From Halovenus aranensis (lineage in GTDB: Archaea > Halobacteriota > Halobacteria > Halobacteriales > Haloarculaceae): a stretch of DNA of 64,000 nucleotides. The stretch covers positions 1 through 64,000 of the forward strand of contig NZ_FNFC01000013.1 of assembly GCF_900100385.1 (NCBI RefSeq), read 5' to 3'. Position numbers and translations under genes: made by a program. Shown in pieces: positions 55,324 through 61,714 of the stretch. Within the stretch, counting starts at the first letter, position 1, and every line of letters starts with the position of its first letter. Below the pieces are notes generated by a model that worked only from the letters and a program-made list of their open reading frames with translations, did not search any database and was not told the DNA's origin.

Positions 55324-57558
55324 ATGTGGCGCCTGGCGCTTGAGACGAACGTAATGTGGACTCTCAGCCGCGTGGTCGAGTCGAACCGAGAAGCGAGAAC
55401 AGGTCTGTTGCTCGCGGGGGCCGTGTTAGCGGCGCTTTTTCTCACTGTTTCCGGGGCCGTCGCCGCCGACGGGGCACCGGACCAGCGCGCTGTCGCGGAC
55501 CTGAATGGGTCTGTCGACACTGGCACGAACCTCACGATTATCCAGTACAACGATATCCAGACAGCGATGGCCGACAACGAGTCGATGGCACGACTTGTCG
55601 GCGCAATCAACGACCGCAAGGCGGCGCTCGATAACCCGACGCTCGTCGTCGGCGGTGGGGACGAGGTGAGCCCGAGCTCGCTGTCGGCAGTCTCGGAGTG
55701 GCGCGTTCCGGTCGACGCGCTGAACGTGTTGAACCCTGCAGCAGAGGTCCTCGGAAACCACGACCTCGACTACGGCTTCGGGGCCGTCGAGAACTTCACC
55801 GAGGAGTCTGAGTTCCCGTGGCTCGTCGCAAACATCAGAGCCGAGGACGGCGGCAACGTTCCGGGGACACAGAACTACACGACCGTCGAACGCGGGGGCG
55901 TCACAATCGGGATTCTCGGCCTCGTCGACGACGCCATCGACCCAAAGACAGCGGTCGACTTCGAGGAACAGGGGTACGAGGTGACCGACTGGTCACAAGC
56001 CGGTAGCGAGGTCGCGACGACGCTCGAAGAGGAGGAAAACGTCGACGTCGTCGTTGCACTCACCCACACTGGCGTCCCCGAGTCGAAAGAGATCGCCAAC
56101 AACACCGACAACATCGACGTTATCGTCACCGGTGACGACGAGGTACTTTACGGGCCTCAGGTCACCTCTGGAACCGCTATCGTTGAGGCCGGCGGCGAAG
56201 CGACACACCTCGGCGAGGTCAACCTCACTGTCGGTGACGACGCGGTCGGCTTTGACGGCGGCAGCCTCTACAACCTTGAGGAAGGGAGTTGGTCGATGAA
56301 CGAGACGGCAGACGAGGTCGTCCAGGCTGGCCGTACCGAGGACCTCACACAGGTCGCCGGTGAAGCGACTGCCTCCCTCGACTCGACGTTCGGAAACTAC
56401 GCCGACGACACCGGCTGGGGCCGGGTTATCGGCGACGCGTTCCTCGCTCAGACCGGTGCCGACCTGGCGATGACAAACGCTGGCGGCATCCGTGGGAACT
56501 TCATCATCGACGAGGGCGAGGTTACCTACGACGACATCTACACGTCGCTTCCCTTCGGAAACACGCTCGTGACAAAGGCGATGACCGGCCAGCAGATCGT
56601 CGACTACCTCTCGCGGACTGCCGCCCCCTTCGACAACGACTTCGGCGTTCAGCCGGAGCTGCAGGTCGGTGGCCTCTCCTACGAAGTCGTCGACCGTCCC
56701 GACCCCGAGCGAAAGGTGACTGATGTCTACGTCCAGGGAGACCCTATCGACCTGGGAAAGACCTACGAGGTTGCTGTCAACTCCTACATGGCCGGCGGTC
56801 CGATGCTCTCGGAGCTCGAAACGGTCGATGAAAACCTCACGCTGTACGGCACCGCAGTCGTCAACTACGTCGAACAGCAGGGAACGATAACGCCACCTGA
56901 GGAGGACCGAATCCGCCGGACAACCCGCTCACTCGGGAAGGCCGATATCTCGCTCGACGGTGACGTGGCGACACTCGAATACGACGTGCCCGACGCCGTC
57001 GATTCCATCGAGCGGTCGTCGTTCACCGTGATGAACGAGACTGCGGGACAGCTCGCTGTCCAGTCAGCCGAACTCACCGACAACACGCTCCGTCTGTCGG
57101 TCAACCAGGCTGCTCTGGTGGCACTTTCGGAACGCAGTGACACCGTTCAGATGTACGGCACATACAACGACTCCGTGATTGACCCACAGCGCAACGGGTT
57201 CGACACGTCGCGGCTGAACGGTGACGCAATGATTTCCGAGGCGACGCTTCTCGAAAACGAACTCGCGGACGCCCGAGCGACACTCGAGGCGCTCGAGGAG
57301 GATATCGTCGACAAAAACGACGAAATCGCGGAGCTAGAGTCCCAGCTAAGCGACCTCAAATCCCAACTGAGTGACCGCGACGACGAAATCGCAGACCTCG
57401 AAGCACAGCTGGAGGAGAAAGACGAGCGCATCGCAGAACTCGAGAGTGACAGCTCCGAAACCGACGACTCCGATTCGAGCGGTCCCGGATTTACGCCTGC
57501 CATTGCGGTCCTCGCAGCCCTTGGCGGGACGCTGCTTGCGATTCGCCGACGACGGTAA
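55324..57558 (+). CDS. UshA-like metallophosphoesterase, PGF-CTERM surface protein
   Basis: About 744 residues. After a signal sequence (TGLLLAGAVLAALFLTVSG), a calcineurin-like domain and a 5'-nucleotidase C-terminal domain follow. GNHDLDYGF is intact. The first metal motif reads YNDIQTA where the family has NDxH, and the later GGHTH site reads VTGDDEVLYG. A coiled coil (about 640-715, DLKSQLSDRDDEIADLEAQL) and a C-terminal PGF-CTERM segment with a hydrophobic helix and RRRR end it, predicting archaeosortase processing and cell-surface attachment. The N-terminal start is unsure (ATG 55300, 55324 or 55354); a TATA-like ATATATTTAG is at 55279. Confidence 0.85.
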   Translation: MWRLALETNVMWTLSRVVESNREARTGLLLAGAVLAALFLTVSGAVAADGAPDQRAVADLNGSVDTGTNLTIIQYNDIQTAMADNESMARLVGAINDRKAALDNPTLVVGGGDEVSPSSLSAVSEWRVPVDALNVLNPAAEVLGNHDLDYGFGAVENFTEESEFPWLVANIRAEDGGNVPGTQNYTTVERGGVTIGILGLVDDAIDPKTAVDFEEQGYEVTDWSQAGSEVATTLEEEENVDVVVALTHTGVPESKEIANNTDNIDVIVTGDDEVLYGPQVTSGTAIVEAGGEATHLGEVNLTVGDDAVGFDGGSLYNLEEGSWSMNETADEVVQAGRTEDLTQVAGEATASLDSTFGNYADDTGWGRVIGDAFLAQTGADLAMTNAGGIRGNFIIDEGEVTYDDIYTSLPFGNTLVTKAMTGQQIVDYLSRTAAPFDNDFGVQPELQVGGLSYEVVDRPDPERKVTDVYVQGDPIDLGKTYEVAVNSYMAGGPMLSELETVDENLTLYGTAVVNYVEQQGTITPPEEDRIRRTTRSLGKADISLDGDVATLEYDVPDAVDSIERSSFTVMNETAGQLAVQSAELTDNTLRLSVNQAALVALSERSDTVQMYGTYNDSVIDPQRNGFDTSRLNGDAMISEATLLENELADARATLEALEEDIVDKNDEIAELESQLSDLKSQLSDRDDEIADLEAQLEEKDERIAELESDSSETDDSDSSGPGFTPAIAVLAALGGTLLAIRRRR

Positions 57559-60198: not shown

Positions 60199-60399
60199 TT
60201 ACATGTACACGTCGTAGAGCCACTTCACGCCGAAATAACAGAACCACGTCATGTAGATGGTCAAGATAATCAGCCAGACAGTGAACTTGACCATCGGGTC
60301 CGGATAGACGACGTACGCGAACACGAGGAGAAGGGCAGTTGCAAGCAGTGCCAGCCCGTCCAGACGGTCGACGGACGGCATTTCCATCGACGTGTGCAT
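60199..60399 (-). CDS. Small two-TM membrane protein (66 aa)
   Basis: 66 residues (MHTSMEMPSVDRLDGLALLA) with two hydrophobic helices, LALLATALLLVFAYVVYP near 17 and VKFTVWLIILTIYMTWFCYF near 38. ATG 60387 (MEMPSV) is an equally good start. Lies divergent from the thioredoxin-like gene. Function unknown. Confidence 0.65.
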   Translation of the reverse strand: MHTSMEMPSVDRLDGLALLATALLLVFAYVVYPDPMVKFTVWLIILTIYMTWFCYFGVKWLYDVYM

Positions 60400-60509
60400 A
60401 CATCTGGTTGTCGTTGCGGCAGTATCAATGGCGCGGTCCGCGGTTGCACGAAGCGGAACCGAACGAAGCAGATTTAACAACACGCAGGCAAACTCACAAA
60501 CGATACAGT

Positions 60510-61037
60510 ATGCGTCGTCGTGAAGCACTCGCCGGACTGGGCGCGCTCGGAGTGTTCGGCGGCGGTGCAGCCGTCGCTTTCGGTGGACTCGATTTCGCGG
60601 GCGGTGACGGCGGAGTCGAGCCGGTCGAACTCCCCCGGTTTGAGGCACCAGGGAGCACTGCCGGCACAGAGGTCGTCCCCGAATCGGACCGGGTGACGTT
60701 CGTGACGATGTTTGCAACGTGGTGTCGGACCTGTCGCCGCGAGATGGACTCGCTCAACGACGCCGCGGCCGCCGTCCCTGCGGACGTTCAATTCGTCTCG
60801 GTGACTAACGAACCGATCGGCGAGACGATTCAGCCCGCCGATGTCGTCGACTGGTGGCGCGAACACGACGGCAACTGGCCGGTCGCCCACGACGAGGACC
60901 TCGAACTGACGAAGGCACTTGACGCCTCGGGTGTCCCCTACTCGGCGGTCATCGACGCCGACAATCAACTCACCTGGGCCGATGGTGGCTACAAGGAGAC
61001 AGCGACTATTCTGCGCCGTATCGACGAGGCACGGTAA
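60510..61037 (+). CDS. TlpA/thioredoxin-like protein, membrane-anchored
   Basis: 175 residues. The N-terminal RRREALAGLGALGVFGGGAA is a Tat-like signal or anchor. The thioredoxin fold follows with the redox motif WCRTC near residue 70, then FVSVTNEPIGETIQP and SGVPYSAVIDADNQLTWADGG near 140 containing the cis-proline. Likely an extracytoplasmic thiol:disulfide reductase. Its TAA overlaps the start of the ccdA-like gene by one base (TAATG), so the two are coupled: the electron donor is CcdA. Confidence 0.88.
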   Translation: MRRREALAGLGALGVFGGGAAVAFGGLDFAGGDGGVEPVELPRFEAPGSTAGTEVVPESDRVTFVTMFATWCRTCRREMDSLNDAAAAVPADVQFVSVTNEPIGETIQPADVVDWWREHDGNWPVAHDEDLELTKALDASGVPYSAVIDADNQLTWADGGYKETATILRRIDEAR

Positions 61038-61714
61038 TGTCACTCACAGCAGAAGCCGGTTTTGCCTTCGGGGTTGGTATGACGGCGTTTTTCTCACCGT
61101 GTGTCGTCGCACTCCTGCCCGGCTACATCGGCTACTACGTGGCGACTGTCGACGGAGAGCGAGCGCCACTCGCGGGTGCACTTGCCCGCGGTGGCGCGGC
61201 GAGTCTGGGTGCTGTGCTCGCCTTTGCGGTGCTGTCGGTCGTTGCCCTCGCTGCCGGTGAACTGCTGGAGCGTGCGATTCCGTTGCTCGAAGTGCTCGTT
61301 GGCGTCTCTCTGGTCGTGTTCGGTGTGTTCGTCCTCAGAAAAGGGGCGCTCTCGTTTACCGTCCCGCTCCCGGAGCGACGCGCCAGCGTCCTCGGATTCG
61401 CGCTCTTTGGCGTGATGTACGCACTCGCTGCGACGGCGTGTGTACTCCCGCTCTTTCTGTCGGTCACCGTCCTTTCTTTCGAGTTCTCTGTCGGCGGGAC
61501 CGCGGTCGTGTTGGGTGCCTACGCCGCCGGGTTCGCCGTGCTCATGCTCGCGGCGACGGTGATGACGGCGGTCGGTCGCCAGGCGCTGCTCGATACGGCT
61601 CTCGCACGGGCCGGCACGCTGACGAAAGTCGCCGGTGTCGTGCTGATTCTCGCTGGAGTCGCCCAACTCGCAATCGCTTACAGCGTCGAACCGGCCGAGA
61701 CGATTCCGTTCTAG
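61037..61714 (+). CDS. ccdA: CcdA-type thiol:disulfide electron transporter
   Basis: 225 residues with six hydrophobic segments and the DsbD/CcdA redox cysteines: the first in FFSPCVVALLPGYIG near residue 20, the second in AATACVLPLFLSV near 134. Moves reducing equivalents from cytoplasmic thioredoxin to extracytoplasmic thioredoxin-like proteins, as needed for cytochrome c maturation. Paired with the upstream TlpA-like gene. The last 4 nt overlap the convergent methyltransferase gene. Confidence 0.9.
   Translation: MSLTAEAGFAFGVGMTAFFSPCVVALLPGYIGYYVATVDGERAPLAGALARGGAASLGAVLAFAVLSVVALAAGELLERAIPLLEVLVGVSLVVFGVFVLRKGALSFTVPLPERRASVLGFALFGVMYALAATACVLPLFLSVTVLSFEFSVGGTAVVLGAYAAGFAVLMLAATVMTAVGRQALLDTALARAGTLTKVAGVVLILAGVAQLAIAYSVEPAETIPF

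Follow-up and report, generated by a model that had tools for sequence, protein, structure and literature searches.

A candidate surface phosphohydrolase of haloarchaea with a remodelled, probably re-tuned UshA-type metal centre

The open reading frame at 55324-57558 (+) of the window, the whole 64,000-nucleotide stretch of Halovenus aranensis DNA that was analyzed, encodes 744 aa in which a two-domain UshA/CD73-type protein is followed by a coiled coil and a PGF-CTERM tail. Residue mapping, conservation and a predicted fold place it in a haloarchaeal clade whose dimetal centre has been remodelled, and make it fairly probable that the protein is an active metal-dependent ecto-phosphohydrolase of UshA/CD73 architecture. 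In the proposed centre, three ligand positions would have passed to oxygen donors (H43 to Q79, H252 to D271, and Q/H254 to E273), and the catalytic His/Asp dyad would be retained together with the bridging Asp, the Asn and the one His left, so the centre is probably re-tuned rather than broken.

Gene, predicted fold and surface anchoring

Residue numbers are counted from the ATG at 55324, the start given in the first-pass annotation, but the ATG at 55354 is the more likely translation start, because a methionine at window Met11 is common to the Halovenus relatives L034, L033 and L035 and the L033 reading frame is closed a few residues upstream of it. The likely coding sequence thus spans 55354..57558 (+) and encodes 734 aa; the nearest named relatives are those of Halovenus salina (80%), H. 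rubra (71%) and H. carboxidivorans (67%). Inspection of the translation by eye suggests a Sec-type signal peptide region (55354..55470, +) with a basic n-region, a hydrophobic core and an AVA-A cleavage-like site. It is followed by a metallophosphoesterase (catalytic) domain (residues 62-349; 55507..56370, +) that matches Metallophos PF00149 in Pfam (4.8e-6; 27.6 bits against a cut-off of 21.5), and by a 5_nucleotid_C substrate-binding domain (56392..56799, +) that matches PF02872 above its cut-off (2.8e-31) and is also supported by residue mapping on UshA and by conservation. This order, Metallophos then 5_nucleotid_C behind an apparent export signal, is that of the UshA/CD73 two-domain 5'-nucleotidase family, and the score against the UshA equivalog PRK09558.1 of NCBIfam (123.2 bits) lies below the curated cut-off of 600.

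AlphaFold2 models built with eight sequences had a pLDDT of 73.4 and a pTM of 0.57 for residues 50-640, and models of residues 62-349 reached 77.4 and 0.83; the loop after motif II (residues 115-124) stayed below a pLDDT of 50 in both. When compared by VIA-align, the whole model matched UshA 4wwl with Z 28.3 and an rmsd of 3.6 over 447 residues (1ho5 likewise gave Z 28.3), and the catalytic domain matched 4wwl with Z 30.1 and an rmsd of 2.8 over 279 residues. The modelled fold is therefore the same as that of solved UshA/CD73 members. Most CD73 chains, NadN, YfkN and CpdB-type chains matched the catalytic domain within about two Z units, and SoxB scored 27.0; because these chains score so close to one another, the fold alone cannot name an activity.

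Residues 640-716 (57241..57471, +) are predicted to form a coiled coil stalk: coiled-coil families match in this stretch, and a heptad test found 77% of the a/d positions to be hydrophobic, a value reached by 0 of 2000 shuffles. The PGF-CTERM anchor (57469..57552, +), made up of PGF, a hydrophobic stretch and RRRR, scores 29.4 bits against TIGR04126 (cut-off 24.5), and the same genome has a gene for archaeosortase A (ArtA, TIGR04125; 273.7 bits against a cut-off of 75) and exceeds the PGF-CTERM cut-off at eight places, this protein included. The coiled coil and PGF-CTERM anchor read in the first-pass annotation are thus borne out, and its view of a surface protein gains support from the anchor, the ArtA gene and the signal peptide seen by inspection; the protein is probably secreted and surface-anchored. 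PGF-CTERM processing and lipid attachment are described for H. volcanii substrates in a published study (PMC7157517). At C55:89587-90786, the ArtA gene of the genome adjoins an open frame that ends in the genome's best PGF-CTERM match.

The metal site and its haloarchaeal clade

Metal-site motifs were placed by MAFFT alignment with E. coli UshA from MG1655, in whose published structures residues 41, 43, 84, 116, 217, 252 and 254 are the metal ligands and 117/120 the catalytic dyad. At UshA positions 41/43/84/116/117/120/217/252/254 the protein has D/Q/D/N/H/D/H/D/E, against D/H/D/N/H/D/H/H/Q in UshA. Motif I (YNDIQ, residues 75-79; 55546..55560, +) contributes D77 at D41 and Q79 at H43; motif II (GGGDEV, residues 110-115; 55651..55668, +), placed by alignment and conservation, has D113 at D84; motif III (GNHDLDYG, residues 144-151; 55753..55776, +) has N145 at N116 and the dyad H146/D149 at H117/D120; motif IV (ALTHTG, residues 245-250; 56056..56073, +) has H248 at H217; and motif V (TGDDEV, residues 269-274; 56128..56145, +) has D271 at H252 and E273 at Q254, flanking an invariant D272. 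Profile alignments agree for motif I against 1ush and for motif V against 2z1a (GGHSHT) and 5h7w (GGHTNT), so the first-pass reading, in which NDxH became NDIQ and GGHTH a GDDEV region while GNHDLDYG was kept, is confirmed.

The canonical dimetal ligand set of the UshA/CD73 family is D-x-H, D, N, H and H-x-(H/Q/N). The protein departs from it by the equivalents of H43Q, H252D and Q254E, and the family's GNH[D/E] His/Asp catalytic dyad is present as H146/D149. The last motif position is His in GGHTH members, but Gln254 in UshA itself and, by the 5h7w profile alignment, Asn in the cobra enzyme; a Glu at this position is, on such sequence comparisons, a conservative change. In the substrate domain, R390, F411 and Y488 align with R410, F429 and F498 of UshA, and F356/Y359 replace R375/R379; in the published structures all five UshA residues bind substrate, with R375/R379 contacting phosphate. 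Because R410, F429 and an aromatic at 498 are kept and R375/R379 are not, a nucleotide-like substrate is likely, held by a different phosphate grip.

The extent of this pattern was examined in a class-wide search of 391 genomes, 327 of which had some family match, with two candidates scored per genome, so that extra copies could have escaped it. The top-scoring block, which extends to E 1.7e-84, comprised 64 places in 63 genomes, and 56 of the 64 were fetched; adding L034, L036 and the Halarchaeum locus L106, and removing duplicates, gave 58 distinct full-length rows. L001, L004, L005 and L019 duplicate clade rows, and L033 is the same gene as L004. L064, which is without the N-terminal motifs, was dropped; the partial weaker matches G354:C92 (with an internal stop) and G280:C28 were left out and may be broken members; and L081, whose motifs are of the canonical DTH/GSHSG type, is absent from the motif and alignment tables. 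The clade rows were picked by D41 and Q43, which makes their conservation circular for those two letters, and all full-length sequences retrieved from the top-scoring block carry both.

Across these rows, Q79 and E273 are found in 58 of 58, and position 271 holds D in 55 rows and H in the other three (L048, L062 and L063). In addition, D113, N145, H146, D149, H248, R390 and F411 are invariant in all 58 full-length rows, position 488 is Y or F, and motif I reads YND[I/V]Q in 57 rows and YNDLQ in Halarchaeum L106. Among 38 other rows, position 252 is His in 30, the exceptions being a sister clade, L084, L094 and L096, position 254 is H, G, A, Q, N, D, E or S, and counts at 41/43 are unreliable, as the MAFFT alignment of motif I is two columns off in haloarchaeal rows of the DTH type. 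The haloarchaeal rows L094 and L096 have DTH in motif I and an Asp at the H252 position (GDDAAEQ) that is separate from the clade's on the tree. The first-pass suggestion of a common haloarchaeal variant agrees with these data, as the changed motifs mark a haloarchaeal clade of 58 rows that spans at least seven of the order's family codes. Over 579 codons compared with L034 (H. salina), there are 42, 39 and 192 differences at positions 1, 2 and 3; these are mostly third-position changes, therefore they indicate purifying selection, and by this comparison the gene is not decaying.

Surface anchoring is common in the clade but is, as far as tails can be read from sequence, no defining trait: a simple pattern applied to 57 rows found 22 PGF-CTERM-like tails, two with EF-hand/dockerin-like repeats and 33 with neither, a rough count since the pattern misses some (L016 scored 'none' and its end looks EF-hand/dockerin-like by eye). 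In genome G073 there are two clade copies with the Q/D/E pattern, L053 and L079, whose long frames (1007 and 1214 aa between stops) have their extra length before the nucleotidase domain. A phylum search of 392 genomes found 73 with a match at 1e-50; the 13 genomes above 750 bits are all in the window's order, and the 20 matching genomes outside the order reach at most 213.3 bits. A scan of viral contigs found two distant loci. A plasmid search matched 302 records, and of the three matches whose motifs were read one, L106:2206-5415 of Halarchaeum sp. CBA1220, is in the clade; this member, of 1069 aa, is encoded by a 603-kb plasmid of non-mobilizable type, so the clade gene can occur on secondary replicons.

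In a tree built by a quick method, which left out nine columns of ligands and dyad and comprised 58 rows of the clade, five of the sister and 15 of the other 33, the clade falls on one side of a branch with an SH-aLRT of 87, and clade plus sister with 99; there are long branches among the outgroup rows of this tree. The exact split between clade and sister is not firm, because an earlier all-column tree gave 0.534 for the clade alone. The D/H change at 252 occurs once inside clade plus sister and three times over the whole tree.

The sister clade (L065-L069) consists of proteins of 919-1211 aa, four of the five with EF-hand/dockerin-like repeats near the C-terminus when judged by eye. They have Gly for H43, Pro for H217 and QNH for GNH (QNHELDYD). 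Their motif V has Asp at 252 (5/5) and either Q, H or D at 254, and the metal centre is thus gone only in part. These sequences suggest that the sister proteins are likely pseudo-phosphoesterases; replacement by Gly or Pro, which would be unable to hold metal, is absent from the pattern of the window's clade.

The gene lies between an Nre gene upstream on the minus strand and an aldehyde dehydrogenase gene downstream. Of the loci compared, L033 and L034 have the same flanks, and weaker matches to the aldehyde dehydrogenase family occur near L017 (36%) and L084 (47%). When 29 clade loci with their flanks were compared, no cluster of neighbours exceeded four loci besides the gene itself and an antisense frame of it, in a crude test that picked the longest frames and in which antisense frames can hide real genes. 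Operon context was therefore rejected as a clue to the substrate. Elsewhere in the window, at 60339-61714 (+), a thioredoxin/TlpA-like ORF with a twin-arginine-like start overlaps by one base, as seen by eye, with a CcdA/DsbD-like membrane ORF.

Proposed activity and competing readings

In the proposed mechanism, site 1 would be formed by D77, Q79, D113 and E273 and site 2 by D113, N145, H248 and D271, and a metal-bridging water would attack a phosphate ester gripped by R390, with F411 and Y488 of the C-terminal domain stacking on either side of a nucleoside-type group. This domain is assumed to rotate the substrate to the metals, as in UshA-type enzymes. After export, the protein would be cut and lipid-anchored by ArtA, the coiled coil would hold the enzyme off the membrane, and phosphate or nucleosides could be released from outside nucleotides. 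With an oxygen-rich ligand set, Mn2+, Mg2+ or Ca2+ may also be preferred over Zn2+. Both Mg2+ and Ca2+ are abundant in brines, and it is possible, if somewhat doubtful, that the clade replaced the His-rich UshA centre with one of oxygen ligands (D,Q,D,E plus D,N,H,D/H) that uses the Mg2+/Ca2+ of the brine, or Mn2+, in place of Zn2+, perhaps with a changed substrate. A link to the Mn2+/Co2+-dependent polyphosphate-degrading activity of Haloferax volcanii was not adopted, as its authors think this activity likely cytosolic and the accessible part of their report does not name the gene (PMC13318637).

The first-pass annotation had proposed changed or lost catalysis. A changed metal site stands, in the form of a clade-wide motif swap, but loss is unsupported, because the substitutes can hold metal, two of them are invariant in 58/58 rows and the third (271) is only D or H, and the equivalents of the dyad, N116 and H217 are invariant. 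There are also precedents, as D[V/I]Q is the usual motif I of the active ADPRibase-Mn family and NadN has Asp at the 252 position. Some observations count against an active centre: the D/H change at 271 is a single event, the two phosphate-contacting arginines are gone, and the published MDP motif has a fixed His at the H252 position. Moreover, D252 alone marks no active centre, because the apparently broken sister clade has it in 5/5, and the abundance of D and E in haloarchaeal proteins makes chance a likelier source of two acidic replacements.

Conserved pseudoenzymes exist, and it is conceivable, but rather unlikely, that the fold has been kept for a nucleotide-like ligand or a surface partner, with catalysis lost and the acidic pocket serving binding, salt adaptation or folding. 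Changes at three ligand positions and at two phosphate-contacting arginines would fit such a protein, as would a sister clade that has broken ligands, shares D252 and is still kept in the five fetched genomes. Against it stand the metal-capable nature of all replacements, the restriction of position 271 to D or H, the invariance (58/58) of the D84 equivalent along with those of the dyad, N116 and H217, and the reported function of D[V/I]Q in ADPRibase-Mn (PMC4334965).

It is improbable that the clade performs a different chemistry, at a mononuclear or Ca2+-type centre and without phosphomonoester hydrolysis, like the peptide epimerase MslH. The oxygen-rich ligand set of the protein is compatible with this idea, and SoxB, which acts on sulfur compounds, has the same two-domain fold. 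MslH itself has rearranged ligands and is reported to work as an epimerase with one Ca(II) (PMC10406935). However, the nucleoside-stacking aromatics F411 and Y/F488 are kept together with R390, and full sets of possible ligands are present at both metal sites. That the protein is an ordinary UshA-type 5'-nucleotidase whose substitutions have no functional meaning is highly implausible: it has the UshA/CD73 fold and domains, position 254 is variable among family members and 43 is also E (in paralogues of the same genome) or Y (in Azospirillum L105), but the changes co-occur and are fixed across a deep clade, and His at 252 is kept in 30 of the 38 other rows.

If the re-tuned centre is active, this clade would be a natural metal-switching experiment within a well-studied group of enzymes, whose canonical, remodelled and apparently dead forms occur together in a single archaeal class. 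It would also be a candidate for haloarchaeal phosphate uptake from outside nucleotides. For annotation, names like 5'-nucleotidase should not be copied onto the clade without a test.

Comparison with known enzymes

A search of the literature on haloarchaeal nucleotidases and altered metal ligands (titles, abstracts and open PMC text) found no description of the Q, D and E combination fixed across a clade. A counterpart to motif I, likened by motif form, is the D[V/I]Q shared with the ADPRibase-Mn-like family (ADP-ribose/CDP-alcohol diphosphatase; 2NXF). This family presumably has no PF02872 C-terminal domain, and its final motif, GHX[H/X], is not found in the protein, which has GDDE; GHDE occurs in 3 of the 58 clade rows only. 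In the published motif of the MDP enzymes the H252 position is a fixed His, within GHX[H/X] (PMC4334965). The D[V/I]Q of motif I is reported to be conserved in ADPRibase-Mn, where a docking model has metal 1 coordinated by the Gln carbonyl and ADP-ribose hydrolysis is modestly affected by Q27H (PMC4334965), and the zebrafish enzyme is described as Mn2+-dependent, with about 25% activity on Mg2+ (PMC3407115). In MslH, a peptide epimerase with a calcineurin-like fold, Glu, Asn and two His bind one Ca(II), and to its authors' knowledge it is the only Ca(II) enzyme of its fold (PMC10406935).

Two paralogues in the same genome, L002 (C42) and L003 (C26), belong to the same two-domain family (PF02872 above cut-off) at 28% and 27% identity. 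They carry YSD[L/I]E with GGHVH/GGHEH, that is, Glu at position 43 and a normal motif V, and so have another variant centre. The NAD nucleotidase NadN of H. influenzae (3ztv) shares the fold (Z 27.0) and has Asp where UshA has H252, within an ungapped alignment (IDVIVTGDSHYLYG vs IDVIVTGDDEVLYG), a comparison that covers motif V; unlike the window protein, it has His at the E273 position.

UshA is the 5'-nucleotidase/UDP-sugar hydrolase of E. coli, and the protein shares its two-domain architecture and predicted fold with this enzyme (1ush, 4wwl) and with human CD73. In UshA-type enzymes, the substrate is reported to be bound in the C-terminal domain and then rotated to the metals (PMC10454023). 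The residues kept from UshA are D41, D84, N116, H217, the H117/D120 dyad, R410, F429 and an aromatic at 498; unlike UshA, the protein has Q, D and E for H43, H252 and Q254, has lost R375/R379, and carries a haloarchaeal coiled coil and PGF-CTERM tail.
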